Shown: positions 38,155 to 54,476 of the stretch, piece after piece
How positions within the stretch are numbered: position 1 is the stretch's first letter
Layout: each line of letters opens with the position of its first letter
From: an uncultured Planctomycetales bacterium
GTDB taxonomy: Bacteria; Planctomycetota; Planctomycetia; Isosphaerales; Isosphaeraceae
Assembly: GCA_903926465.1 (NCBI GenBank)
Contig: CAIYJE010000021.1
Location: 62,001 to 126,000 of the forward strand
Length of the DNA: 64,000 nucleotides
Direction of reading: 5' to 3'
Made by a program: the position numbers and the translations under genes
Notes under the pieces: generated by a model
Databases searched by the model: none
What the model saw: the letters and a program-made list of their open reading frames with translations, nothing else
What the model was told of the DNA's origin: nothing

Positions 38155-39630
38155 TCAGGCGAACGGACGGCGATCGTTCCCAAAATCGAGTGGGCGGGGC
38201 AGGGCCGACTCACCCATCAGATCTTGGTCGATGGTGGCAGCCACCTGTCGTCCTTCGGCAATGGCCCACACAATCAGGCTCTGGCCTCGTGCGCAGTCGC
38301 CCGCGGCGTAAACCTTGGGCGCGCTTGTCCGTCGCATACCGTCGGTCTTGATGTTCCCCATGGGATCAAGCTCAAGGCCAAGCTCAGAGATTGGCCCAGT
38401 GCGTTCTGGGCCCACAAAGCCCATGGCAAGCAACACGATATCGGCTGGATACTTGTGCTCTGATCCCGCGACCGGAACAAACTGCATACGACCGTCGGCG
38501 CCTGGCTTCATTTCAACCTTCACGGTTTCAAGACCAGCAATCCGGCCGTTCTCGCCATAGAAGCGAACCGTGCTAATCGAGTACTCGCGGTCGCCGCCCT
38601 CTTCATGGGCGCTGGTAACCTTGAAGGTGTTCCACCACTGTGGCCAAGGGTTATTGGGAGTTCGAGCATCGGGCGGGCGAGGCACGATCTCAAACTGATG
38701 GACACTCCTGCACCCCTGACGGTGAACGGTACCGAGGCAGTCTGCCCCGGTGTCGCCACCACCAATGATGACCACATGCTTATCCTTGGCGGAAAGCGGC
38801 GGCGAGTTGGGACCGTTGTCACCAGCCACGTTCTTGTTTTGCAGAGGCAAGAAGTCCATGGCGGGATAAACACCGGCCAGTTCACGCCCAGGAATTGGCA
38901 GGTCGCGTGCCGCGGTCGCCCCGTTGCAAAGGCAAATCGCGTCAAACTCGGCAAGTAACTGGGCACCGGTGATATCGGTCCCCACGTTGACACCAGGCTT
39001 GAACACAACGCCTTCGGCCTCCATCTGGGCAACGCGGCGATCCAGCCGCCACTTTTCCATTTTGAAGTCGGGGATTCCGTACCGAAGCAGGCCACCAATC
39101 CGGTCGGCCCGCTCGTACACAACCACATCATGGCCGGCTCTTGCCAGTTGCTGCGCGGTGGCCAGCCCCGAAGGACCTGAACCAATCACCGCCACCTTTT
39201 TACCGGTACGAACCTCGGCCGGTTCAGGAACCACCCAGCCCTCGGCCCAACCACGATCAATGATCGAAAGTTCGATCGACTTGATCGTTACCGGGTCATC
39301 GTTGATGCCCAGCACACACGAGGCCTCGCAAGGAGCGGGGCAAAGCGTACCGGTGAACTCAGGGAAGTTGTTGGTGGCATGAAGCCGATCCAGGGCCAGC
39401 TTCCACTGGTCACGGAATACCAGGTCATTCCAGTCTGGGATCAGGTTGCCCAGGGGGCACCCTTGATGACAGAACGGAATTCCGCAGTCCATGCACCGGG
39501 CACCCTGCTCATGCAGGGTGGTGATGGGAAGCGGGTGATAAACCTCTCGGTAATCACCCAGCCGCTCCTCAATCGGTCGGGGCTTGGGCTTGGCACGATG
39601 AAATTCGAGAAATCCGCTTGGCTTACCCAC
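38155..39630 (-). CDS. gltD: Glutamate synthase small subunit
   Basis: NADPH-binding beta subunit of GOGAT, 491 residues. The N-terminal cysteine cluster [22 protein letters not shown] and [12 protein letters not shown] form two Fe-S sites. FAD motif [20 protein letters not shown] and NADPH motif [15 protein letters not shown] follow. It passes electrons to GltB. It starts with GTG at 39630, eight bases inside the gltB reading frame, so the subunits are translationally coupled. A pair of repeat hairpins follows the stop. Confidence 0.97.
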
Positions 39631-42600
39631 GGCTCACCTCCACGGTCTGGGCGGCAGGCGTACTGGCCGCGCGTTTCTGCTCTTGAAGAACTCGACGATA
39701 ATCGACTGGCATAACTTTGACAAACTGACGCACGGAAACTTCCCAGGTTTTGAGGAGTTCCGCGGCCACCGTACTGCCGGTGTAGCCGGCATGCTGGATC
39801 AACAGGTCTCGGACCAATTCCAAGTCTTCGGCCTCATGGAGCGGTTCCAGGTCCACCATCTCCCGATTACAAAGACCAGGGAACGTGCCGAGCGGGTCAA
39901 ACACGAAAGCGGTGCCGCCACTCATGCCGGCCGCAAAGTTCCGACCGGTGGCACCAATCACCACGGCCACACCGCCGGTCATGTATTCGCAGGCATGGTC
40001 ACCCACACCCTCGACCACGGCCAGGGCTCCCGAGTTCCGGACACAGAACCGTTCGCCGGCCCGACCTCGGAAAAAGGCCCGCCCAGCCGTTGCCCCGTAA
40101 AGGGCCACGTTGCCGATGACAATGTTTTCCTCGGGCTTGTACAGACAAGCTTTTGAGGGGAACACAATCACCTTGCCGCCGGAAAGCCCCTTGCCCACAT
40201 AGTCGTTGCCGTCTCCTTCCAAAGTTTGGGTGATTCCACGCGGCAGGAACGCACCAAAACTCTGGCCGGCGGAACCCACGAACTTGAGCTGGATCGTATC
40301 GTCTGGCAGCCCCGCACTGCCGTAACGCCGGGTCAGCTCAGAGCCCAGAATGGTGCCGACGGTGCGGTTCACATTCCGGATCTGGAACTCGCCGGTGACG
40401 GACTCGCCCTTCTCAAGCGCTGGCTGGCAGAAAGGGACAAGCGTTGTCACGTCGAGCGATTGGGCAATTCCATGATCCTGGTCGATCATCTTGCGAACGG
40501 CCACGTCGCTGCCCACGTTGGGCCGATGGAACATCTTCGAGAGGTCGAGTCCTCTTGCCTTGTAATGGTCAAGTGCCTTCCGCATATCGAGCAGGTCGGT
40601 TCGTCCGACCATTTCCTCGAATGTGCGGAAGCCAAGTTCGGCCATCAACTCGCGAACTTCCTCGGCAATGAACTTGAAGAAGTTGACCACGTGCTCGGCC
40701 TGGCCAGAGAACTTCTCACGCAGCTTGGGGTTCTGGGTGGCAATACCCACCGGGCAGGTGTCGAGGTGACACACCCGCATCATAATGCAGCCCATGACCA
40801 CCAGCGGAGCCGTGGCAAAGCCAAACTCCTCGGCACCCAGAAGCGCACCAATCACCACGTCGCGACCGGTCTTCATCTGACCGTCAGCCTGAACGACAAT
40901 CCGGTCTCTGAGCTTGTTCAGCACCAGGGTCTGCTGGGTCTCGGCCAGGCCGAGTTCCCAGGGAACACCCGCGTGCTTGATGGAAGTCAGCGGGCTTGCA
41001 CCCGTACCACCATCGTAGCCGGAAATCAGCACAACGTCCGAGTGGGCCTTGGCCACACCCGCGGCCACGGTGCCAACCCCCACCTCGGCAACCAGCTTCA
41101 CGCTGATCCTGGCTCGTGGGTTCGCGTTCTTGAGGTCATAAATGAGCTGAGCAAGGTCTTCAATTGAGTAGATGTCGTGGTGAGGCGGTGGACTGATCAA
41201 ACCCACGCCCGGCGTTGAGTACCGCACCTTGGCAATCCACGGGTAGACCTTGTGGCCAGGAAGCTGACCGCCCTCGCCAGGCTTGGCCCCCTGAGCCATC
41301 TTGATCTGGATTTCATCGGAATTGACCAGATATTCGCTGGTCACTCCGAACCGGCCAGACGCAACCTGCTTGATGGCCGACCGCTTGCTATCGCCATTGG
41401 GCATTGGCTTGAACCGGGCTGGGTCTTCTCCCCCCTCACCGGTGTTGGACTTGGCCCCAAGACGATTCATGGCAATGGCCAGCGTCTCGTGCGCCTCGGC
41501 CGAGATCGAGCCGTAACTCATGGCCCCGGTCGCGAACCGCTTCACGAGCCGTTCAACCGATTCCACTTCGTCGATCGGGACCGGCGTGCGTCCTTCTCGC
41601 TGGATTTCAAACAGCCCACGCAACGTGCAAAGCCGTTCGTTCTGCTCGTTCACGCGCTGGGTGTAGCTCTTGAAAATCTTGTACTGGCCAGACTTGGTTG
41701 CATGCTGCAGCCGGTAAATGGTCTCAGGATTGAACAGGTGATACTCACCATCCCGACGCCACTGGTACTGACCACCCTCTTCAAGAAGGATTGGCCCCAC
41801 CTCTCGCGGCATGAACGCCCGGTGATGGTGGTGAAGCGTTTCGGCGGTAATCTCTTCGATGCCAACCCCCTCGATCCTCGAGGCGGTCTTGTCGAAATAC
41901 TTGGAGATGAAGGCGGAACTGAGACCAATTGCCTCGAAGATCTGGGCCCCTCGGTAACTCTGGATCGTGCTGATGCCCATCTTGGACATCACCTTCACAA
42001 CCCCCTTCTTGATCGCCTTGCGGTACCGCTTCACCGCCTCATAGTGATCAACATCGGCCTTGATCAGGCCCAGCCCAATCATGTCGTCCAGCGTTTCGAA
42101 GGCCAGGTAAGGATTGATGGCGCCGGCACCGTAGCCCAGCAACAGGGCGAAGTGATGGACCTCACGGGCGTCTGCACATTCAATCACCAGCCCAACCCGG
42201 CTCCGCAACCCTTCACGTACCAGGTGGTGATGCAAGCCAGAGCAGGCCAGCAGCGAAGGAATGGCCGCGAGCTCGGCGGAAACCTCACGATGCGAGAGCA
42301 CGATCAGGCTGGCACCATTCTGAATGGCCGCGGCCGCTTCCTGGAAAATCTCTTCCAGACGCTTCGCCATTGCCGATGCCCCGCCCGCAGCCGGGAACAG
42401 CATGGAAATGGTCGCCGACTTGAATCCACGCCAGCCCTCAAGACTCTTGATCTGGGCCAGCTCATGGTTATCCAGAATGGGAGTCTCCACCAGAATCTGA
42501 CGTGCAAATTCTGGCCGAGGGTCCAGCAAGTTCCCCTCTCCGCCAATTCCCGTCCGAACCGAGGTCACCAGCTCTTCGCGGATGGCATCAAGCGGCGGGT

Positions 42601-44185
42601 TGGTCACCTGGGCAAACAGCTGCTGGAAGTAGTTGAAAATTGGCTGGGCACGGTCCGAAAGCACCGCAATTGGTGTATCGGTACCCATGGATCCAATGGC
42701 CTCCTCGGCGTTGTTCGCCATAGGGCCCAGGATGTACTTCAGGTCTTCCAAGGTGTAGCCAAGTGCAATCTGGCGGTGCAGCAACCGCTCATGATCTGGC
42801 TGAGGAACCTCGGGCACTTCCGGCAGATCCTCAATTCGGACCATGTACTCTTTGAGCCAGGCGCCGTAGGGATGCTCAGAGGCAATCCGCATCTTGAGTT
42901 CTTCGTCGCCCACAATCCGACCCTGTTCCATATCAACCAGGAACATTTTGCCGGGCTCAAGCCGACCGCGAAGCACAACCTCTTCGGGCGGCGTGTTCAA
43001 CACACCGCTCTCGCTGGCCATGATCACCAGCCCATCACGCGTAACGCAGTAACGGCTTGGACGCAGCCCGTTCCGGTCAAGCACGGCACCAATCGACTTA
43101 CCATCGGTGAAACCGACCGATGCCGGACCATCCCACGGCTCCATCAGGCAGGCATGGTAGCCGTAGAAGTCTTTCTTGACTTGGGGCATGGTCTGGTGCG
43201 CATCCCAGGCTTCTGGAATCAGCATCATCATGGCGCGTGGCAGCGAGTAGCCAGACTTCACCAGCAACTCAACCGCGTTATCCAGGCAGGCGGTATCGCT
43301 CAGCCCTTCACGAATCACCGGGCGAATGGCGTCAATGTCGCCCGGCTCATAAAGGTCCGACGCAAACAAAGACTCACGCGCACGCATCCAGTTGATATTG
43401 CCGCGCAAGGTATTGATTTCGCCGTTGTGGGAAATCATCCGGTATGGGTGCGCAAGCTCCCAGGATGGGAACGTGTTGGTGCTGAACCGAGAGTGGAACA
43501 TGGCGAACGCCGAGACGAATCGTGGGTCTTCCAGATCGTCTGCGTAATACTCAGGAACCTGTCCAGGCGTGAGCATTCCCTTGTAAACAACCGTTCGGCA
43601 CGAAAGGCTTGGAAAGTAGAAGAACCGGTGATCGTCGCCGGTGGCCTCGTTGAGGTGCTCGAACTTTTTCCGGATCACAAACAGCTTGCGCTCAAAGCGA
43701 TCGGTGTCGGCACCGTATCGGGAACCGATATAGCACTGGAAAACCACCGGCTCCACCGTGCGGGCACCCTCTCCGAGTGTGGAGTTGTTGGTGCGGAGCC
43801 GGCGCCAACCAAGGAACGGGAGGTTCGCTTCACGCACAATCTGTTCAACCGCGGCCAGTCCCTGCGTCTGACGGGCTCCGTCTGGTGCGGCAAAGAACAT
43901 GCCCACGCCATACTGACCGGCCGCCGGTAGCTCGATCCCTTCTTCTCGGCATCGTTCCACCAGGAATTCGTGGGGAATCTGGACCAAAATCCCTGCGCCG
44001 TCGCCGGTGTTGGCCTCACATCCACAGGCACCACGGTGATCCAGGTTGATCAGAGCCGTGATGGCATCGCGAACGATCTTATGTGTCTTACGGCCTTTGA
44101 GATCGACCAGGAAGCCGACACCACAGCCGTCGTGCTCGTTTCGCGGATCGTAGAGGCCCTGGGGTGGAGGATAAGCGGTACTCAT
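39623..44185 (-). CDS. gltB: Glutamate synthase large subunit
   Basis: Alpha subunit, 1520 residues from the ATG at 44185 ([14 protein letters not shown]), which has AAGGA at correct spacing; longer starts are unnecessary. [11 protein letters not shown] is the amidotransferase nucleophile, exposed after loss of the short propeptide. The FMN/synthase domain has [10 protein letters not shown] and [13 protein letters not shown], the 3Fe-4S cysteines sit in [19 protein letters not shown], and the C-terminal GXGXG repeat domain ends in the usual way. With GltD it makes two glutamates from glutamine and 2-oxoglutarate. Large antisense frames opposite it are shadows. Confidence 0.97.
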
Positions 44186-44290
44186 CTGCATTCCTTGTAG
44201 GTCACGGAGCTGACGGAACTCAGGAACTGGGCGGCTGGGCCTGGAGAAAGGCCCGGACAACAAAACTGGAAAAGCGGCGGTGAATTGCGG

Positions 44291-45244
44291 TTAGCGTTTT
44301 GAGGCTGAAGCCCCAGCCTTGTTCAGCGGATTCTCAGACGAATCTGAAGTACATGGGCATGGGTGAAGCAACAGCTTGAGAAATCGAGACGCCGTTAACC
44401 CCAGTCCACCCGCCGCTCGATGGATCACGGCAATGGGACGGGACAGCGGGTGATCTTGGATGTGGATGGCAGAGATTGTCCCTGCCATCAGTTCGTGTTC
44501 AAGCGTGGGGAGTGGCAAAATCGCCACGGCTTCGGGAAGCTCTATGACCGCCCGCTTGATATTTTCAATGTTGTCGAACTCAAGTGCCACATTCACATGC
44601 ACACCGTGTTTGCGTAGAAACCGGTCGATAGCTCGGCGAATCGTCAAGGGAGATTCAAACGCCACGAATTGCTCCCCCTCAAGTCGCTCTACGTTCACCG
44701 ATTCCAGTTGTGCGATCGGATGCCGGGGGCTTGCAACGATGACCATCTCTTCTTCACGCCAAGGGATCACCGTGAGGTCGGGCCACTTCTGGGGGAACGA
44801 AATCAGCCCAAGCTCATTCAGCCCCTCCTGAACACTCTCAACCACGCGTGTGGGGTGCAAGTACTCCAGACGAACTTCCGCTTGCGGATACTGACTCCGA
44901 AACCGATCAGCGAAACCGGTCAAATGGGCCAGTCCCACCGAGTAAATCGAACTCACCCGGACGGTCCCAACCACATTCTCTTCGTTCTCAAGCGCCTTCA
45001 CCCGAGATTCGAGCGCCTGATAACTGCCGATGAGGTCCTTGCATCCCTCATAAAACATCTGTCCATGAGGGGTGAGAACCAGAGGTCGCTTGGAGCGATC
45101 AATCAACTTGACGCCGAGCCGAACTTCCAGTTGATGCACCGCCTGGCTGGCGGTTGACTGAGAAACACCGTTCTCAGCAGCGCCGCGAGAAAAACTCGCC
45201 CAGCGAACCACATCACAATAAATTCGAAGCGACTCAAGTTGCAT
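44291..45244 (-). CDS. LysR-family transcriptional regulator
   Basis: 317 residues from the ATG at 45244 (MQLESLRIYCDVV). The N-terminal winged helix (FSRGAAENGVSQSTASQAVHQLEVRLGVKL) is followed by a long linker helix and the periplasmic-binding-like effector domain starting VRVSSIYSVGLAHL. It ends 105 bases before gltB on the same strand, so it may regulate gltBD in the manner of GltC, or respond to another signal. The effector cannot be read from the sequence. A strong inverted repeat lies upstream. Confidence 0.92.
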   Translation of the reverse strand: MQLESLRIYCDVVRWASFSRGAAENGVSQSTASQAVHQLEVRLGVKLIDRSKRPLVLTPHGQMFYEGCKDLIGSYQALESRVKALENEENVVGTVRVSSIYSVGLAHLTGFADRFRSQYPQAEVRLEYLHPTRVVESVQEGLNELGLISFPQKWPDLTVIPWREEEMVIVASPRHPIAQLESVNVERLEGEQFVAFESPLTIRRAIDRFLRKHGVHVNVALEFDNIENIKRAVIELPEAVAILPLPTLEHELMAGTISAIHIQDHPLSRPIAVIHRAAGGLGLTASRFLKLLLHPCPCTSDSSENPLNKAGASASKR

Positions 45245-45346
45245 CAGGCCCGAACTGCCCCTGGAAGACCACCTCGGCAAGCCCCTGACTGTTCATCACC
45301 TGAGCAGGAGCTTCCAATTCTCGACGAAAGGAATGATCACCGACAG

Positions 45347-45393
45347 TATCGGTTTTTTCAATAGTCTACTTTTCTAAAATTAAAAAAACGATA
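45347..45393 (-). promoter_or_regulatory. AT-rich inverted repeat upstream of the LysR gene
   Basis: TATCGGTTTTTT and AAAAAAACGATA pair at 11 of 12 positions around a 23-base A/T-rich spacer, about 100 bases before the regulator start. Position and symmetry suit an autoregulatory LysR-type site with the promoter inside. Confidence 0.5.
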
Positions 45394-45422
45394 GTTCCCA
45401 TCAACCTTCAAGTCGATGGGGA

Positions 45423-45542
45423 TTAGCCCTTGAGCCATTCCGGGTCCGTGGGAAGCAGCTCAACCACTTGTAAGAGGCAGTGAGAGCAGTGCGCAAGATC
45501 AAGCCGACCAGGATTAATCACATTGACGATTACCTCTCCCAT
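45423..45542 (-). CDS. Possible small Cys-containing protein
   Basis: A 39-residue frame, MGEVIVNVINPGRLDLAHC and then SHCLLQVVELLPTDPEWLKG, ending at TAA at 45423. The frame extends about 30 codons further upstream without an ATG (LLHRDRSGKIVSFQSGRP), so the start could be different. HCSHC-type spacing (CxxC) could bind metal. It lies in an otherwise empty 740-base region. No family recognised; may be a remnant. Confidence 0.35.
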   Translation of the reverse strand: MGEVIVNVINPGRLDLAHCSHCLLQVVELLPTDPEWLKG

Positions 45543-45616
45543 AATCGTCTCAGCGAGTAATCCCGGTCGGCCGGATTGAAACGAGACAATCTTTCCAGAT
45601 CGGTCTCGGTGTAAGA

Positions 45617-45658
45617 GGGGGCAAGCGGGGGGGTCGTGCGAGGCAACCCGCTTGCCCC
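45617..45658. terminator. Perfect 12-base-pair hairpin
   Basis: GGGGCAAGCGGG and CCCGCTTGCCCC around an 18-base loop, upstream of the possible small gene. It lacks a T-run, so attenuation or a structured leader is as likely as termination. Confidence 0.5.
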
Positions 45659-46023
45659 TTGGCGGTTAGCTCGCTCTGGTGGGTAACCGAGGAACTGTCG
45701 CCAGGTGGGGTGACTTCATCAAAGTGATCAGGACCTCAAATGTGCTCAATTTGCTTTTGAGCCAGGATGGATGTCATCTTTTTGGATGAGTTCCTGTGAC
45801 TGACGGCAAATGGAGAGAGCAATCCCAATGCCAAACCTGGAAAACCGAACAAAAAAAAGATTTCAGGGGTATCGTTTCCACCCTGCATCTCGACCAAACC
45901 ACACTGTTTTCCGTATCTTGGGGCAAAGCCAGGGTCTGTTTTGGTTTGCCAAGAACATCCCGTAATCGCGCTTGCAGCCCCGCAGACCCCAGACTGGCAC
46001 ACACCCGAGCCTGATGATTTTGT
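45659..46023. other. Gene-free upstream region of the unknown 451-residue protein
   Basis: About 365 bases. Weak small frames only. GGAAAACCGAACAAAAAAAAG near 45840 is A-rich and may hold promoter elements, but no clear -35/-10 pair is visible. Confidence 0.35.
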
Positions 46024-47379
46024 ATGCAACATCGCACGCGTTCCGAGCAGAAGAGGCGAAAGTCGGATTCCACTCCCTTGGAGGAGCCGACTCTTCCAGC
46101 TGAACCTGGCCAACCCGACCAGGAAATGATCCCGGACTGGATTGAGAGCCAGGAAGGGATTCAACTCGGTCGAGTAGCGGCAACCTGGTCGAAAACCGGA
46201 CGCGAGATCGGCCTGGTCTCTTGGCTCGATAAACAACTCGATGACGAAGGCCGCCCCAAACGAACCAAGTTCCCATTCTGGGAGTTTGTGGCGGGGGTTC
46301 AGTCGGTTCTCAAACTTTACCCTGGCAAACTTCCGGACGAGTTCTGTGAGCAGCTTCGCATTCTGCTCAGTTTTGGGCTCAGCCAGGCCGCTGAGGAACT
46401 GAGGCCCGGCAAAAGTGGAGATCTGGCGCCTCAGATTCTGAAGCTCACGCAACGCATTGAAGCCAGCGATCTCGAACAACTGGTCAGACTGGCCAAATCC
46501 TCAAAAAAGGGTCAGCTCCCGGCGAAGTTCGCAGATCTCTCTGCAATTTCCAGCTCCGCGCACCCCAAGCTCATCCTTGGGTGCCTTCGAGACGGCTGGA
46601 AGTTTCCGACCACCTCACTGCGGATCGACCAATCTGCGGGGGGAGCAAGCACCGCGCTCGAACTCCAGGTCGAATCTCGAGACTGGCTGGGACCCCTCTG
46701 GTCACTGGGCCCAAACTCAAGTTCTGAGCCGGCGGTTTCCGTGGCTCGCTGGCGGGAACGGACATCGAGTTCGACCTCCGATCTGCTCGAATGGTCGTTT
46801 CGAATTGGGACAACCCGCATTATTCGAACCGCTTTGCTGCTCAAGGAATACAAACTCGCCCTTCTGGCCGACCAGGTTGATGGCCCAGCCAACCAGACCT
46901 GGACGAGCCAGATTGATGTTGGCAGATTGGTGCGCGCAGAGACAGACACGGAAAACCGTGGCTTGAATCTTCAGCACACCGGCCAGTCCAGCCTATGTAT
47001 CTGGCCGCTGGCTTTGCCTAGCCTGCCTTATGTGACTGAACGAGGACAATTTCGGCTCGATGGCTCGCAACTGAAGCTCGAACAACAGACCCAAATTCGT
47101 CGAACCTGGATGCCTTTGCTTCTTTCCTGGGATCCTGCCAGGAATCGCAAACCGGTCCACTGGAGACACCTGACGGTTTCCGAATCGTTCAAAAAATGCA
47201 AACCAGAGACTGCATTCGCGGTTCGGGTTGGTTTCAAGGGTTTGCCAAGCCTGGTGCTCTATCGCAGCCTGAGTACCCCCACGCGTCGGGCCTTTCTGGG
47301 CCACCAAACTTCCGCACGCATGCTCATAGGTCAGTTTGATACCGATGGAACTCTGAAGCCAATTTTCGAGTTCGAATGA
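46024..47379 (+). CDS. Uncharacterised 451-residue protein
   Basis: A long uninterrupted frame with normal codon use and no recognised family. It starts with a basic stretch (HRTRSEQKRRK), has no signal peptide and no membrane helix. Trp- and Leu-rich segments alternate with loops (WIESQEGIQLGRVAATWSK, WSFRIGTTRIIRTALLLKEY), suggesting an alpha/beta fold with a beta-rich second half. The ATG at 46024 lacks a clear ribosome site, and an in-frame Met at 46126 (MIPDWIESQEG) is a plausible alternative start. It stands alone between the LysR-gltBD block and a convergent small gene. Confidence 0.7.
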   Translation: MQHRTRSEQKRRKSDSTPLEEPTLPAEPGQPDQEMIPDWIESQEGIQLGRVAATWSKTGREIGLVSWLDKQLDDEGRPKRTKFPFWEFVAGVQSVLKLYPGKLPDEFCEQLRILLSFGLSQAAEELRPGKSGDLAPQILKLTQRIEASDLEQLVRLAKSSKKGQLPAKFADLSAISSSAHPKLILGCLRDGWKFPTTSLRIDQSAGGASTALELQVESRDWLGPLWSLGPNSSSEPAVSVARWRERTSSSTSDLLEWSFRIGTTRIIRTALLLKEYKLALLADQVDGPANQTWTSQIDVGRLVRAETDTENRGLNLQHTGQSSLCIWPLALPSLPYVTERGQFRLDGSQLKLEQQTQIRRTWMPLLLSWDPARNRKPVHWRHLTVSESFKKCKPETAFAVRVGFKGLPSLVLYRSLSTPTRRAFLGHQTSARMLIGQFDTDGTLKPIFEFE

Positions 47380-47412
47380 AAGATTTAGGCGGAATACGGC
47401 TGGCATGCAATC

Positions 47413-47453
47413 GCCAACTCGGAGCCAGTCCCGGTTTTGAAACGGCATCTTAA
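47413..47453 (+). repeat. Right half of hairpin repeat family 1
   Basis: CCAACTCGGAGCCAGTCCCGG, then TTTTGAAACGGCATCTTAA, matches the right arm of the full copies. The left arm is missing. It sits directly after the 451-residue gene. Confidence 0.8.
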
Positions 47454-47460
47454 AAATGGC

Positions 47461-47501
47461 TCAGGGTCCGGTATCAGCCCCAGGCTGATACCGGACCCTG
47501 A
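47461..47501 (-). terminator. 19-base-pair perfect hairpin, likely terminator
   Basis: The arms TCAGGGTCCGGTATCAGCC and GGCTGATACCGGACCCTGA are perfect, with a CCA loop. On the minus strand GCCATTTTTAAG follows, so it may end the minus-strand transcript coming from the diadenylate cyclase side. Confidence 0.75.
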
Positions 47502-47565
47502 ACCACAATAATCATCAGCCTGGCCTTCCAGATTCCGCCGGCAGCGGCCTGGTATTTCAAGAATT

Positions 47566-47829
47566 TCAGGACTTGGTGCGGGGCCTGGTTGGTGAATTGA
47601 TCACCATCCAGAGCGATACAAAAATATAGGCCAGGGACACGGCAAACATGGTGTGCCCAAGGTGCTTGTGGGCCTTCAGGACCGAGTTCCTCATATCTCC
47701 GCTGGCGGTCAGCAAAACCTGCCCCAGCGCAAACTGAGAAACCACAAGAAACAGTGAGAAAACCCCAAGAGCGATCAGTATCAGCTTCTGGTTACTCGTC
47801 AAGCGACCATCTCCATTGCCATTGGGCAT
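47566..47829 (-). CDS. Small two-helix membrane protein
   Basis: 87 residues from the ATG at 47829 (MPNGNGDGRLTSNQK); a TTG five codons earlier is the alternative. Two membrane segments (about 16-36 and 56-76) with a His-containing loop LKAHKHLGHTMFAV between. No family recognised. It lies 45 bases downstream of the diadenylate cyclase gene on the same strand and may belong to that operon. Confidence 0.65.
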   Translation of the reverse strand: MPNGNGDGRLTSNQKLILIALGVFSLFLVVSQFALGQVLLTASGDMRNSVLKAHKHLGHTMFAVSLAYIFVSLWMVINSPTRPRTKS

Positions 47830-47874
47830 CCAGGCGAGCGTCAAACGAACGGCGACTGGTTCAGAAAAAGGGAA

Positions 47875-48774
47875 TCAGAAGTCATCCTGCATCCGGCTGC
47901 GGGGCCGTTGAACATCGGTCACAATGCGTCCGCCTCGAAAGATCGTAACAGTTCCCGTGGATTGAGAAACACAAAGCGCCACGGCATTGGTGGAACTTGT
48001 GATCCAGGCCGCGGCCTCGTGGCGTGTTCCAAGGCCAGCCGGCAAGGCATGCACGGGCCGCTCTCGGGCCACCAGATAGCGTGCCGCAGCCAGTATCACG
48101 CCATCGCCACGGATAATGTAGGCACCGTCGATCGCCGAGAACTCCTTGATTGTCTCTTCGAGCTGGGGGTCCAGCACGTTCCGTTCAGACTCGGGGTAGC
48201 CATGAAATGGGTTAATCACAAGCTGGCGGCTCTCGGCCAGCACATTGTCAGAATCTCCCACCACAAAAAGGGCTCCCACGGCATGCCCTTCACGTCCCTC
48301 GGAACCCAGCTCACTGGCCAGATCGAGCAGCCGCTCGAAAACTGCCGGGCGAACGTCGGCCGGTAACGGGCCAACCGCTCCCATCGAAAACATTTCCAGT
48401 TCCGCGCCAAGATCGAGAACGAGCACCGTATCTATGGTGTTGGAATTCTGCACTCCGGTCAGCCAAACAACGCGATCGCCCAGTTGCACCAGGCCTTCAA
48501 CAGCCGCCACAAGGGTGGCCACTTTGACCTGACCCGCCCTGGTCATGCGAACGTCTGGCACATGCAGAACCGTACAAAGATCTTCCCACCCGGCCGGTGG
48601 TTGGAAATTCGGTCGTCGAGAAACAAGAATCAATCGAAACGCCACATCGCGAATCATGTCTGCTAGCACGTCGTCGGCTTCCACCACGTCGGCGTACAGG
48701 AAGATCAATCGCGCACCAACCTCCCGGGCAATGGCGTGGGCGTGGCGAATCAGGCTGCGAGTCAAAAGGGTCAT
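47875..48774 (-). CDS. Diadenylate cyclase (DAC domain, CdaZ-like layout)
   Basis: Makes the second messenger c-di-AMP from two ATP. 299 residues from an ATG whose first bases overlap the upstream stop (ATGA). The C-terminal DAC domain is recognised by DGA at 216-218 (AIDGAYIIRGDGVIL) and GTRHEAA (R251-A255), where the usual RHRAA has Glu for Arg. The first 130 residues (VGARLIFLYADVVEADDVL, then AVEGLVQLGDRVVWLTG) look like an alpha/beta sensor domain, perhaps pyruvate-kinase-C-like as in archaeal CdaZ; there is no membrane helix and no DisA DNA-binding domain. This assignment of the N-terminal domain is an inference. Activity requires checking because of the RHEAA change. Confidence 0.85.
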   Translation of the reverse strand: MTLLTRSLIRHAHAIAREVGARLIFLYADVVEADDVLADMIRDVAFRLILVSRRPNFQPPAGWEDLCTVLHVPDVRMTRAGQVKVATLVAAVEGLVQLGDRVVWLTGVQNSNTIDTVLVLDLGAELEMFSMGAVGPLPADVRPAVFERLLDLASELGSEGREGHAVGALFVVGDSDNVLAESRQLVINPFHGYPESERNVLDPQLEETIKEFSAIDGAYIIRGDGVILAAARYLVARERPVHALPAGLGTRHEAAAWITSSTNAVALCVSQSTGTVTIFRGGRIVTDVQRPRSRMQDDF

Positions 48775-50603
48775 GGATTCCCCGCCTCGATCCGCTTGGA
48801 TCCTGCGGACCATTCAAGCGACATCGAAAGGATGCTCAAATTATCACGGACATCCGGGTCGTCTGGAGTGCCGATTTGACTGAATCGGATTGTGTTCAAC
48901 CCGCGCTGGAGGAGACCGGGAGGAAGCCCCATTCGAACCCGCTGGCGACTGGTGTTCAAAGTGGTGATGAGGTCATTCAGGTCACCGATCCGGCGATCAT
49001 TGAGTTCGACCACGGTGCGTAGGTGGCCAGCTTTCACACGTTCCGAATGAGCGGGAGTACCATCCACACCCACCACTCCCAGGACGTCGAGTACCAACGA
49101 TACGGCTCCAGACGGAATTGTGTTGAGTTCAAAACGATGCTCCAGCGTCGCCCCGTCGGGAAGTGGAGGATCAAGCTCTGGATCAAAACGGTTGCCGAGA
49201 TGGTACGGCCAGGGGTCGAGCACCAACCGGTTAAACACCCCCTGGGGTTCAAGTCGTCGGATCACGTTCTTTGGTAGCTGAATCTTGCCCAAGGCAGGGC
49301 TGAAGAGCTGGATCCAGCGTTCATCAACCGAGAGTAGCATGGCCTCAAGCTCATCGGGAGATTCCAGAGGATCGCCTGGTGAGCCATTCCAGGATACGTG
49401 AACCAGCGGACCGGAGAACGAGGTTGGCTGGAATGGATCGCGTTTGAAGCTGACGGCCGAAAGATCCCGCCAGGGAAGGCGGATCGGGTCCACGCCCAAA
49501 CCGGTGGCAAACCCGACCCCCTCCGAGCCCAGCGATTGAACCGCACCAAAAAGTTGATCGCCGTTGATCCGAACGAGCGAGTCGATTCCAAGATCAACTT
49601 CCGGTCTGGCGGTTTTCTCAAGCCTGCGTACAAGCTGAACCCCATCCAGAAGAACCGATTGCATGGGTCCATCCTTGCTATCAACCTGGCCGGTTCCTAC
49701 AGCCACTTCGACTAACTCTCCAGGAATCCCTTCGCCATGGGCCAGTTCATTGCCGTCCAGGCTCAGATCGGTGCGGTCCTGACTCCAGCGCGCCACCAGT
49801 CGATGCCGACCAGGTTCCCGAACCAGTCGTTGGACCGCCAGGGAAATACCACTCTGAGACTCAACCAGGACCGTGGGATCTTTGGACCCGAGCCGAATCC
49901 GGATCGTTGCATCGTCTCCGCCTGAAACGCGAAATTTTAAGTCCACCCACCAAGGCCATTGAAAGTTCGTGCCTTCCTGTTCAAATCCGAGTTCGAGACG
50001 ACCAGATGCGAGTCCCGTACTTGGGCGATACCGCAAACCTGCGCCCGATTGCCCGAGCCTCAATCCAGACCGAGGTGTTTCCACGACCTCGACCGAGCCA
50101 CTCGGTTTCCAGCCAGAAGCGGCCTTGGTATCCGACCATTGGCTTAGAAGCACCGCCTCTCCGACGCGCTGGGAGATTGACCGAATCCAGGGGCGAGGGA
50201 TGGTCCAAGGGCTTTCATCCAACCCCGTATCAATCTCAATTCCAGTCCCCACAAGGCGAACTGTGCGTGCCGACACCCGGCTGCCGTCCGCCAGTTTGAC
50301 GATAAACGGGCGGGTGAGTTCGATCCTTGCCGCAGGATCGGTTGTTTCGAGTTCGATCTGACGCAACTCAGGCCAGGCAATCAACTCGAACGGAGCCTCG
50401 TCACTTTGGAATGCAGGACCGACCTGGGTACCCACAAGTCTGCCCGCAACCCGTTTTCCATCCAAAAGTTGCGCCTGCTCTTTGGGCTGACTGAAAAGAT
50501 CGGCCATGGTATTCCAGCCGAGAGCCACGACCAGCAACGGGCTCAGCCCAAGCCGCCAGGGAATCAGGCGGGTCCAACGAAATGCGGAAAAGATTTGGCT
50601 CAT
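48771..50603 (-). CDS. Uncharacterised membrane-anchored beta-rich protein
   Basis: 610 residues with one N-terminal hydrophobic segment (about 15-32, LGLSPLLVVALGWNTM) that acts as signal anchor. The rest is beta-rich: FIVKLADGSRVSARTVRLVG early, a LamG-like middle (HRLVARWSQDRTDLSLDGNEL, shown only as a family impression), and a Gly/Asp-rich end SLVLDVLGVVGVDGTPAHSE. The stop overlaps the diadenylate cyclase start by four bases. No family is recognised. The coupling suggests it acts with the cyclase, for example as an envelope sensor. Confidence 0.7.
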   Translation of the reverse strand: MSQIFSAFRWTRLIPWRLGLSPLLVVALGWNTMADLFSQPKEQAQLLDGKRVAGRLVGTQVGPAFQSDEAPFELIAWPELRQIELETTDPAARIELTRPFIVKLADGSRVSARTVRLVGTGIEIDTGLDESPWTIPRPWIRSISQRVGEAVLLSQWSDTKAASGWKPSGSVEVVETPRSGLRLGQSGAGLRYRPSTGLASGRLELGFEQEGTNFQWPWWVDLKFRVSGGDDATIRIRLGSKDPTVLVESQSGISLAVQRLVREPGRHRLVARWSQDRTDLSLDGNELAHGEGIPGELVEVAVGTGQVDSKDGPMQSVLLDGVQLVRRLEKTARPEVDLGIDSLVRINGDQLFGAVQSLGSEGVGFATGLGVDPIRLPWRDLSAVSFKRDPFQPTSFSGPLVHVSWNGSPGDPLESPDELEAMLLSVDERWIQLFSPALGKIQLPKNVIRRLEPQGVFNRLVLDPWPYHLGNRFDPELDPPLPDGATLEHRFELNTIPSGAVSLVLDVLGVVGVDGTPAHSERVKAGHLRTVVELNDRRIGDLNDLITTLNTSRQRVRMGLPPGLLQRGLNTIRFSQIGTPDDPDVRDNLSILSMSLEWSAGSKRIEAGNP

Positions 50604-50866
50604 AAAAACATTCTAAATGGCAAAGAGGAAGACAGGCAATTGACCGGTGACAGGCAACACCGCTCTTGTGATCTGTGTGACGCACAGACCACCCAATCCG
50701 CCAGAGCCACGTATCCCCTTGCGTAAATCGCAACTTCGCGGGATCAGGTTCAAGTAGGCCAGTCCAATCAACCGATTCCAATCGAGCAACCCTCTCCCTG
50801 CGCCTATTGTACATACCCGGCCGACCGGCCTTCGTTCTTTTGTGAATCAGGAAGGATACTGTTCAC

Positions 50867-52492
50867 ATGCATTTTCCAGCCAGACATCAACGTCGTCGGC
50901 TATGGGCATTGGGAGTTGCGGCGACCCTCGCCTCCGGTGTCACGGCTTCGGCAGCGCAGGATCTCCCAATCTCAGCGGCTCGTGCACCGGGTACCATGCC
51001 AGGTGCGGGCACGCCAGTTGGAGTTCCCATCCGGCAGGATGCTGGGGTCAGACGGGTCCAGGATGTCCCCGTTTCCCCAAGCCCAGCTCCGCCAGCCGCA
51101 AGCCTCCCTGGCACGATGGATGCAGCCCCGGCTCTGCCTTTTGGTGTGGACCGGTCTGAGATTGGCAACCAACCTGCCGACCTCAGCCTGCCCGCGGCCG
51201 ACCGACCAATTGGCGGCGGCGGAGCAACCATCGAAGCACAGAACACGGAAGCGGCCGAAGCTACCGCGGCCAACGAGCCTAAGCGGATTCAAAACCTGCT
51301 CGGTTTTGAAGAATCACCAGTCAAGATCTATGGCTGGATCCAGAATAGCTTCACCGGCAATGCCAACGGCCATAGCGGCGGCTTCAATAATGGTGTGAAC
51401 CCCAACTTTAAAGCCAACCAGTGGATGGGGAACCAGTATTACCTGGTTGTTGAAAATCCGCTGGAACAGTCCGACGAGGTGAACTTCGGTTTCCGGGTTG
51501 ATAACCTGTTCGGCAACGACTGGCAATTCAACTTCATGCAGGGCATGTACAACGGTGCCTTCAAAAACGGCTCGTTCGCAGGCTATGACACGGCCCAGCT
51601 CTACGGCGAAGTTCACTTGCCAGACCCCACCGGGGCCACCAAGGGGATCGACGTCAAGGGTGGTCGCTGGTACACACTTGCAGGGTACGAACAGGTGCCG
51701 GCGATCGCTCGCCCGCTCCTCTCCGTGCCTTACATGTTCAACTACGGTCAGCCGTTTACCCACCTCGGCGTGATGACCACCTGGCACCTCACCGACAAGA
51801 TCAACTTCTACAACGGTGCCATCAACGGCTGGGACCGTTGGCAGAACCAAAGCTACACGTGGGGCTACATGGGTGGCTTCTCCTGGACCGGCAACGAGGA
51901 TAAAACCTCGCTGGCGTTCACCACGGCAAGCGGCCCGCAGCAGTACCCTCGGTTCCTGCCATCGAACCAGCCAATCTACGCGACTGGATACCTCAACGTT
52001 CCAAGCGTGGCAGGTACAACCAACACCGGGTACAACAACAACAACCGGACCCTGTTCACCACCGTGCTCACGCACAAGTGGACAGATAAGCTGACCCAGG
52101 TCATGGAAACCGACCAAGCCTGGGAAAAGAATGTGCCCGGCCTGGCATCGCCCGTGGTCAACGGCGTGATCCAAAACGCCAGCGCCAAGAACGCCACCTG
52201 GTACAGCTTCGGTAACTGGTTCCTTTACAACTTCAATGACAAGCTGACCGGCGTCTGGCGGTCTGAAGTCTTCTGGGATACCACCGGAGTTCGAACCTAC
52301 AACGTTCAGGACGGCCAGTTCCGTGGTGATCGGTTCTATGAACAGACCCTGGGTCTGATCTACAAGCCAATCCCCAACATCTGGATCCGCCCCGAAGCCC
52401 GCTATGACTGGACCCAGTTCACCAACTACTACGACAACGGTACCAAGAAGAGCCAGCTCACCCTGGGCTTCGACATCATCCTGTTGTTCTGA
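50867..52492 (+). CDS. Outer membrane beta-barrel porin, Bbp2/OmpL-like
   Basis: 541 residues. Signal peptide (about 1-30, ending ASAAQDL), then a Pro/Ala-rich linker of about 100 residues, then the barrel from SPVKIYGWIQNSFTGN onwards. Aromatic-rich alternation (FGFRVDNLFGNDWQFNFMQG, WTGNEDKTSLAFTTA, YDWTQFTNYYD) and a terminal Phe (LTLGFDIILLF) fit an outer-membrane porin of the Bbp2 group, abundant in planctomycetes. The ATG follows AGGAAGGA. A terminator follows. Likely general nutrient uptake. Confidence 0.9.
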   Translation: MHFPARHQRRRLWALGVAATLASGVTASAAQDLPISAARAPGTMPGAGTPVGVPIRQDAGVRRVQDVPVSPSPAPPAASLPGTMDAAPALPFGVDRSEIGNQPADLSLPAADRPIGGGGATIEAQNTEAAEATAANEPKRIQNLLGFEESPVKIYGWIQNSFTGNANGHSGGFNNGVNPNFKANQWMGNQYYLVVENPLEQSDEVNFGFRVDNLFGNDWQFNFMQGMYNGAFKNGSFAGYDTAQLYGEVHLPDPTGATKGIDVKGGRWYTLAGYEQVPAIARPLLSVPYMFNYGQPFTHLGVMTTWHLTDKINFYNGAINGWDRWQNQSYTWGYMGGFSWTGNEDKTSLAFTTASGPQQYPRFLPSNQPIYATGYLNVPSVAGTTNTGYNNNNRTLFTTVLTHKWTDKLTQVMETDQAWEKNVPGLASPVVNGVIQNASAKNATWYSFGNWFLYNFNDKLTGVWRSEVFWDTTGVRTYNVQDGQFRGDRFYEQTLGLIYKPIPNIWIRPEARYDWTQFTNYYDNGTKKSQLTLGFDIILLF

Positions 52493-52526
52493 GCTGAGTC
52501 TCTGACTCCTCTCTGCCAAACCTGGA

Positions 52527-52566
52527 AAACGGGCGTGATGGAACCACCATCGCGCCCGTTTTTTTG
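52527..52566 (+). terminator. Terminator of the porin gene
   Basis: AAACGGGCGTGATGG and CCATCGCGCCCGTTT pair with one G-T wobble, followed by TTTTT on the plus strand. Confidence 0.92.
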
Positions 52567-52842
52567 CGCATACAACGCAGCTCACGAAATTCCGAAGGTT
52601 CGCTTCTGATACCGAAGTTGGTGCGCTTCTAATCCTGAGCCAACCACGAAAGTTAACACTTGATCACCTGAAAATCTCCTGGAACGGCCCGCTTAAACAG
52701 CACCATCAACCAAGCGTTCAAAGCTGTACCACAAGCACTATCGCTTAACCAAGTAGCACTCTCTGCTCAAAAGCATACACTACAAAGAACCCAAAACACC
52801 CAGGCCAACTGAATACCTGATAAAAACACCTTCTCGCCAGTT

Positions 52843-52858
52843 TGGCACGGGAGATGCT
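52843..52858 (+). promoter_or_regulatory. Sigma-54-type promoter before amt
   Basis: TGGCACGGGAGATGCT matches the -24/-12 consensus TGGCACGNNNNTTGCW at 11 of 12 informative positions, with exact GG-to-GC spacing. It lies 179 bases before the amt start. Upstream (52600-52710) are GGTGC and GCACC half-sites that may bind an NtrC-type activator. Confidence 0.65.
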
Positions 52859-53036
52859 CATCCCTAGACTCGTTTCCTCTCCCTTCCTCAGGTCTTTAGC
52901 CCAGACCCGCATCACACGAAAACCACAACTCTCAATTTCAAAGTCACTTAGGAACAAACACGGAGTTTTTGACGCGGGTAACGACGGGCTAAGACGGCTG
53001 AAGACTGTCGCAAGGCTGCCTAATTTTTGTGAGACA

Positions 53037-54476
53037 ATGCTCATGACTAAAGCAACTCCGATTCCGTTCCTGATTCTTGCACTGATTGCCATCGGGGCTC
53101 TTTTTCTGAAGGGTCCCGACGTGACGCTGGTGCCAAACGGCGATGTGAACGCCGGTGACACCGCCTGGATGCTGACCGCCTCGGCCTTGGTGCTTTTGAT
53201 GACGCCGGGCCTCTCGTTCTTCTACGGCGGTATGGTGCGATACAAGAACGTCGTCTCGACGATGCTTCAGAGTGTGATCGCTCTCGGTGTGATCAGCGTG
53301 CTCTGGGTTGTGGTGGGATTCAGCCTTGCTTTCGGTGATTCGATTGGTGGCATTGTTGGTGATCCCCGCACGTTCTTCATGTTTCACAACGTGACGGATG
53401 CGGCTGTGAAGCTGGGAAGCAAGGGAGACATGGCGCTGACCATTCCCCTGTTGCTCTTTGCCATGTTCCAGCTCAAGTTCGCCATCATCACCCCTGCGTT
53501 GATCACGGGTTCGTTCGCGGAACGGGTTCGCTTTTCGTCTTACCTGTTGTTCATGGTGCTTTTCAGCCTCTTGATTTATTGCCCGCTGGCCCACATGACC
53601 TGGCACCCCGATGGAATCTTCTTCAAGTGGGGAGTCAAGGACTTCGCTGGTGGAACCGTGGTGCACATGTCGGCTGGTTTTGCGGCCCTCGCAGGTGCAA
53701 TTACCCTTGGTCGCCGTGCCAGCCACCTGAAGCAGGAAGCTCATCCGCCAGCCAACATCCCTTACATCTTCTTGGGCACGGGATTGCTCTGGTTCGGATG
53801 GTTCGGATTCAACGCTGGCAGTGCCACCGCTGCTAACGGAACGGCTGCACTGGCCTTCACCACCACCAACACCGCTTCAGCCGCTGCCATGCTCGGCTGG
53901 ATCTTCTTCGACTGGATGAAGGGGATCAAACCTTCAGCCTTGGGTGCTTGTATTGGTGCGGTGGTCGGTCTTGTGGCCATCACTCCAGCCTGTGCCTTCG
54001 TCTCCATCCCCCACAGCATCATCATTGGCCTGGTGGCCAGCGTTATCAGCAACATTGCCGTTCACTTCCGCACCAACAGTCCGCTCGACGACACGCTCGA
54101 CGTGTTCCCTTGTCACGGCGTTGGTGGCATTGTGGGCATCATCATGACCGGTATCTTCGCCATGGAAGGTAAGAATGCCGACGGCACCCCCAAGGGTGAT
54201 GCTGGTCTGTTCTACGGTCAGACGTCACAGTTCATCAATCAGATGACAGCCTTGGTGATCGTGGCGGTGTTCTCGTTCGTCGCCTCCATGATCCTGTACA
54301 AACTGGTCGATCTCATCATTCCACTCCGGGTGAGCCCAGACCAGGAAGATGAAGGTTTGGACAAGAGCCAGCACGGTGAGAAGGCTGTTACACTGGGTAG
54401 CCTGGTCACCAACGGCCACAGCGTCCATGGCAACGATCACTCCAAATCCGCAGCCGATCTGCTGACCAAGCATTGA
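53037..54476 (+). CDS. amt: Ammonium transporter
   Basis: Ammonium channel of the Amt/MEP/Rh family, 479 residues (an ATG two codons later is equally possible). Eleven hydrophobic helices; twin-His pore residues in GGTVVHMSAGF and FPCHGVGGIVG. Signature DTAWMLTASALVLLMTPGL and FFYGGMVRYKN at the start. The last 45 residues are hydrophilic and acidic. No glnK gene is adjacent. It is preceded by a sigma-54-type promoter, fitting expression under nitrogen limitation, and glnA lies 2.3 kb downstream on the other strand. Confidence 0.95.
   Translation: MLMTKATPIPFLILALIAIGALFLKGPDVTLVPNGDVNAGDTAWMLTASALVLLMTPGLSFFYGGMVRYKNVVSTMLQSVIALGVISVLWVVVGFSLAFGDSIGGIVGDPRTFFMFHNVTDAAVKLGSKGDMALTIPLLLFAMFQLKFAIITPALITGSFAERVRFSSYLLFMVLFSLLIYCPLAHMTWHPDGIFFKWGVKDFAGGTVVHMSAGFAALAGAITLGRRASHLKQEAHPPANIPYIFLGTGLLWFGWFGFNAGSATAANGTAALAFTTTNTASAAAMLGWIFFDWMKGIKPSALGACIGAVVGLVAITPACAFVSIPHSIIIGLVASVISNIAVHFRTNSPLDDTLDVFPCHGVGGIVGIIMTGIFAMEGKNADGTPKGDAGLFYGQTSQFINQMTALVIVAVFSFVASMILYKLVDLIIPLRVSPDQEDEGLDKSQHGEKAVTLGSLVTNGHSVHGNDHSKSAADLLTKH

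Follow-up and report, generated by a model that had tools for sequence, protein, structure and literature searches.

A conserved gene pair in Isosphaeraceae places a predicted soluble diadenylate cyclase of the CdaZ/DacZ class beside a probably exported lectin-fold protein

Introduction

Does a diadenylate cyclase (DAC) gene that overlaps the gene of a putative envelope protein mark a signaling circuit, or are the two linked in some other way? This question is raised by a 64,000-nucleotide stretch of an uncultured Isosphaeraceae genome (hereafter, the window), in which the two genes lie on the minus strand next to a gene for a small membrane protein. A sequence-only reading had proposed that they form a strictly coupled, envelope-sensing c-di-AMP circuit without a described counterpart in other phyla. 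Its observations proved largely right, except for the membrane anchoring of the partner protein, while its interpretation outruns the evidence. An analogous arrangement is already known in Firmicutes, where the cyclase CdaA and the membrane-linked regulator CdaR/YbbR are encoded in one operon (PMC8573169; PMC9259658). Experimental work on c-di-AMP in planctomycetes was not found in the literature searched.

Results

Class and architecture of the cyclase

The cyclase gene (47875-48774, minus strand) encodes a protein of 299 residues; the longest open frame, with a start 39 bases further upstream, would encode 312. Its Pfam matches comprise DacZ_P at residues 6-127 (1.4e-19, 70 bits against a cut-off of 27.4) and DAC at residues 157-283 (7.5e-21, 74 bits against a cut-off of 27). 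In an AlphaFold2 model (pLDDT 86), the N-terminal domain (residues 1-128) has the fold of the pyruvate kinase C-terminal domain (PK_C; Z 14.2, 120 residues, rmsd 2.4), and the DAC domain (residues 139-291) has the CdaA fold over residues 139-288 (Z 15.0, 129 residues, rmsd 2.5). Matches among PDB sequences are to CdaA and DisA. The CdaZ-like layout recognized in the sequence-only reading was thus recovered by both domain searches and structure prediction. No transmembrane helix was found in the protein, the highest 19-residue Kyte-Doolittle mean being 1.34 at residue 117, inside the PK_C-like domain.

A PK_C-like N-terminus, a C-terminal DAC domain, solubility and a DGA motif are shared with CdaZ of Methanocaldococcus jannaschii and DacZ of Haloferax volcanii. 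Against the NCBIfam equivalog for haloarchaeal DacZ (NF041371), the cyclase scores 131.8 bits, below the cut-off of 430, placing it as a class relative of haloarchaeal DacZ that falls outside this equivalog. The best reading is an ordinary-looking, predicted soluble c-di-AMP synthase of the CdaZ/DacZ class. The class is already known and has published planctomycete members: a DacZ tree that includes planctomycete proteins, Isosphaera pallida among them, has been reported, along with a proposed regulatory function for the PK_C-like domain and a role for Haloferax DacZ in osmotic control (PMC6741144). The operon partner differs, being an MscS channel gene in the haloarchaeal system and the gene for an apparently exported lectin-like protein in Isosphaeraceae.

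Active site and DAC complement

The cyclase carries DGA at residues 216-218 and RHE at residues 251-253. In an alignment with 31 relatives, D216, G217, R251 and H252 are invariant, and the residue after RH may be E, W, H, A, Q, Y, I, M, L, V, N or R. The RHEAA motif is present, as had been pointed out, but since the position after RH varies freely in the family, it is uninformative about cyclase activity; the suggestion that its difference from RHRAA could alter activity was dropped, as was the idea of a special active site.

The cyclase is the sole DAC protein found in the source genome (99.7% complete), making it the only candidate c-di-AMP source there. At least one DAC is encoded in each of 45 Isosphaeraceae genomes, with the RHE type in 32 and the RHW type alone in 13. 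A tree of 61 DAC proteins separates the RHW lineage (support 100/100), which within this set is confined to Planctomycetia, from a broad bacterial lineage that contains the RHE type. Given that many relatives carry a second DAC with RHW, the RHE cyclase might be regarded as a degenerate paralogue with altered or absent activity; the textbook motif is RHR, and replacement of the whole motif (RHR to AAA) inactivates the Mycobacterium tuberculosis enzyme (PMC3328451). That result, however, does not speak to the third motif position alone. Degeneration is highly improbable in view of the twelve residue types accommodated at this position beside an invariant R and H, and of the absence of a full-length RHW-type enzyme from six of the 32 RHE-type genomes, including the source genome.

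Family searches of the source genome for c-di-AMP partners identified two phosphodiesterase-like proteins of the DHH-DHHA1 type, 346 and 352 residues long, and a channel that combines TrkA_N with TrkA_C, all of which are possible partners as judged by domain content. No c-di-AMP riboswitch was detected in this genome by a search that was positive in Bacillus subtilis. Elsewhere, DacZ-like cyclases of Fibrobacterota and Thermodesulfobacteriota have conserved neighbors of their own (loci L148, L161, L164, L165 and L176; families f7, f35-f37; f16, f12 and f17).

Conservation of the gene pair

The gene for the 610-residue protein (48771-50603, minus strand) lies directly upstream of the cyclase gene. 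Its stop codon (48771-48773) overlaps the cyclase ATG, which starts at 48774, in the ATGA (48771-48774) that had been noted from the sequence. The overlap also occurs at loci L036, L037, L043 and L047; in all, it is exact in five of 17 measured loci, the remaining gaps being about 7-150 bases.

A homologue of the 610-residue protein is encoded directly upstream of the RHE cyclase, on the same strand, in 30 of 32 genomes from 16 genera, and in the two exceptions (G013 and G030) the contig ends at that point. The pair, whose neighborhood had been proposed for comparison across planctomycetes as a check, is retained in relatives. Gene order is also kept in Pan216, from another family of Planctomycetia, with a distant homologue (24% identity) as partner. 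The more distant neighbors vary more from locus to locus, and because they are far more scrambled than the pair, its adjacency is apparently held by selection. Adjacency of the two genes is well beyond chance; extending across 16 genera and Pan216, it exceeds most incidental co-transcription and could reflect a physical or regulatory link.

The coupling appears to be one-sided, not strict as had been claimed. Homologues of the 610-residue protein occur in 43 of 45 Isosphaeraceae genomes, including 12 of the 13 that lack the RHE cyclase. Five genera (g6, g9, g13, g16 and g20) retain this gene in the absence of the RHE cyclase, with another DAC gene at an unlinked position. In g9, g13 and g16, it directly adjoins the gene that elsewhere comes after the cyclase, in otherwise unchanged surroundings. 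Because the surroundings are kept and the pair occurs in Pan216, these three genera are most simply explained by cyclase loss; the tree of the 610-residue family, with its long branches and open forks, is too weak to prove or date such losses. As every genome without the RHE cyclase has another DAC, the exported protein may still act together with c-di-AMP in these organisms. In g6, the homologue adjoins a multi-domain gene with apparent sugar-hydrolase-like and esterase-like regions, as read from its sequence.

The 610-residue partner protein

The partner was modeled by AlphaFold2 as an all-beta protein (pLDDT 79), in agreement with the beta-rich character ascribed to it, and it matches no family in Pfam, NCBIfam or PDB sequences. 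Following a predicted signal peptide (residues ~1-34), the model contains beta domains at residues 40-145 and 340-465, a sandwich of the ConA-like/laminarinase type at residues ~147-329 and a C-terminal beta-sandwich at residues ~470-600. Residues 147-329 match lectins and laminarinases with Z of 15-17 (VIA-align) at roughly 7-16% identity; this domain fills the fold match lists, in which the other domains are barely covered. Two weak Pfam matches were obtained among 17 family members, namely one to Laminin_G_3 (0.017) and one to a CBM-like domain of a polysaccharide lyase (0.011).

The middle domain thus resembles ConA-like lectins and GH16 laminarinases in fold, but the GH16 catalytic motif (ExDxxE-type, searched as E[ILVF]D[ILVF]-type) is absent from all 17 members. 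GH16 catalysis was rejected on this ground, and together with the low identity, the missing motif suggests that, if the modeled fold is correct, glycan binding is likelier than cleavage.

The single-pass anchor that had been attributed to this protein did not withstand comparison with its relatives. In the window protein and 16 relatives, the N-terminus has a short hydrophobic core followed by an AxA-type site (e.g., GGPARA|AEP, GEPAMA|QKV and GWNTMA|DLF), as in cleavable Sec signal peptides. No hydrophobic segment stands out elsewhere in the window protein, apart from a borderline maximum around residue 495 that falls within the C-terminal beta domain of the model. The protein is probably exported through a cleavable signal peptide and released, with a retained anchor being the less likely reading of the 17 N-termini.

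YbbR domains are beta-rich and extracytoplasmic. No Pfam match to YbbR was found in any of the 17 members, leaving homology to YbbR/CdaR without support from Pfam, and no YbbR-named entry appears among the 50 fold matches listed, a list filled by the lectin domain.

Small membrane protein and wider neighborhood

The next gene after the cyclase (47566-47844, minus strand) encodes a two-helix membrane protein of 87-92 aa with a conserved KxHxHxG stretch. It starts 45 bases on, as had been stated, if the ATG at 47829 is used, or 30 bases on if the TTG at 47844 is used. Its proposed membership in the circuit as a third component is not supported by its distribution: homologues are present in 37 of 45 genomes, and in 35 of these the cyclase is unlinked, the exceptions being the source genome and G011. 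At five of six other loci inspected, the neighboring genes, as read from sequence, include one that is YggS-like, one of ~400-430 aa that is related to the convergent 451-aa ORF of the window, or one of each. A conserved three-gene system was therefore discarded; the small protein appears to belong to a separate conserved locus (yggS-like gene, small protein and ~430-aa gene) that abuts the cyclase unit, and in the source genome it is probably co-transcribed with the cyclase. The convergent gene (46024-47379, plus strand) has no Pfam match and, with the small-protein gene, constitutes a conserved Isosphaeraceae neighborhood of ~430-450-aa and two-helix proteins, often beside a YggS-like gene (L200, L202, L203 and L204). 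Between the convergent gene and the minus-strand unit, a strong hairpin resembling an intrinsic terminator (47458-47504, minus strand; 20-bp stem, then a T-run) ends the unit and perhaps serves as a bidirectional terminator.

In the window, the cyclase unit is located among nitrogen genes (39623-54476). These surroundings include a glutamate synthase large chain, as read from sequence (39623-44263, minus strand), a LysR regulator (44291-45280, minus strand), a BBP2 porin (50867-52492, plus strand) and an ammonium-transporter-like gene (52842-54476, plus strand). A LysR gene and a divergent porin gene are also found at the G011 locus (L043). In G044 and G048, a PAS/GAF/response-regulator gene (L049 6957-8729; L050; L191 2323-4071) adjoins the RHE cyclase, and in G041 it adjoins the 610-residue homologue. 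Several Isosphaeraceae have this gene a few positions away, and it may have long belonged to the pair's neighborhood. A tRNA scan of the window found no tRNA.

Discussion

The preferred interpretation, held with moderate confidence, is that a soluble c-di-AMP synthase is co-transcribed with an exported lectin-fold protein, and that the two are linked through shared expression instead of a physical sensor-cyclase complex. According to this proposal, the PK_C-like domain would probably bind a small ligand or set the oligomeric state of the enzyme, while the DAC domain would convert two ATP into c-di-AMP in the cytoplasm, most likely in the service of potassium or osmotic homeostasis, after the proposal for Haloferax (PMC6741144). 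The two genes would be co-transcribed, in the source genome with overlapping codons, and the lectin-fold protein would act outside the cytoplasmic membrane, with both products perhaps contributing to a common envelope or osmotic response.

A direct circuit, in which the 610-residue protein senses the state of a glycan or the envelope and controls the cyclase through an uncleaved anchor or a membrane partner, in the manner of CdaR and CdaA, would account for the conserved adjacency and order and for the overlap seen at some loci. It has a precedent in the CdaA-CdaR operon (PMC8573169) and in the influence of CdaR on c-di-AMP in a Gram-negative bacterium (PMC9259658). In Firmicutes, as here, a DAC gene and the gene of an extracytoplasmic protein belong to one unit. 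In that system, however, both partners are membrane proteins, CdaA having transmembrane helices and CdaR being membrane-linked and reportedly contacting the transmembrane part of CdaA (PMC8573169), whereas the cyclase encoded in the window has no membrane segment and its partner is apparently released. Because the N-termini of the 610-residue family read as cleavable, the obvious contact route from an envelope protein to a soluble cytoplasmic cyclase is removed, and no other membrane link of the kind that a direct circuit needs was found. Together with the persistence of the partner gene in five genera without the RHE cyclase and the lack of YbbR matches, these features make such a membrane-sensor circuit quite unlikely. 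It is very doubtful that an exported glycan-binding protein controls a CdaZ-type cyclase across the membrane, through a partner or an uncleaved anchor, as a module unrelated to CdaA-CdaR.

At the other extreme, inherited gene order might have left two functionally unrelated genes under one promoter. The variable and mostly non-overlapping spacing is consistent with this explanation, as are the otherwise undisturbed loci from which the cyclase is gone and the very different evolution rates of the two proteins (61-70% identity for the cyclase versus ~30-39% for the 610-residue protein). Linkage of this kind is nevertheless rather unlikely, given that selection appears to maintain the adjacency of the pair amid much more scrambled outer neighbors.

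The favored reading, shared expression of a cyclase and an exported protein, concerns a pair that is testable in culturable Isosphaeraceae, including Singulisphaera acidiphila (DSM 18658) and Aquisphaera insulae, with the genera that lack half of the pair serving as a natural control. On present evidence, the locus represents a conserved, unexplained gene neighborhood around a known enzyme class; if a real circuit does operate there, it would constitute a second way of coupling c-di-AMP to the envelope.
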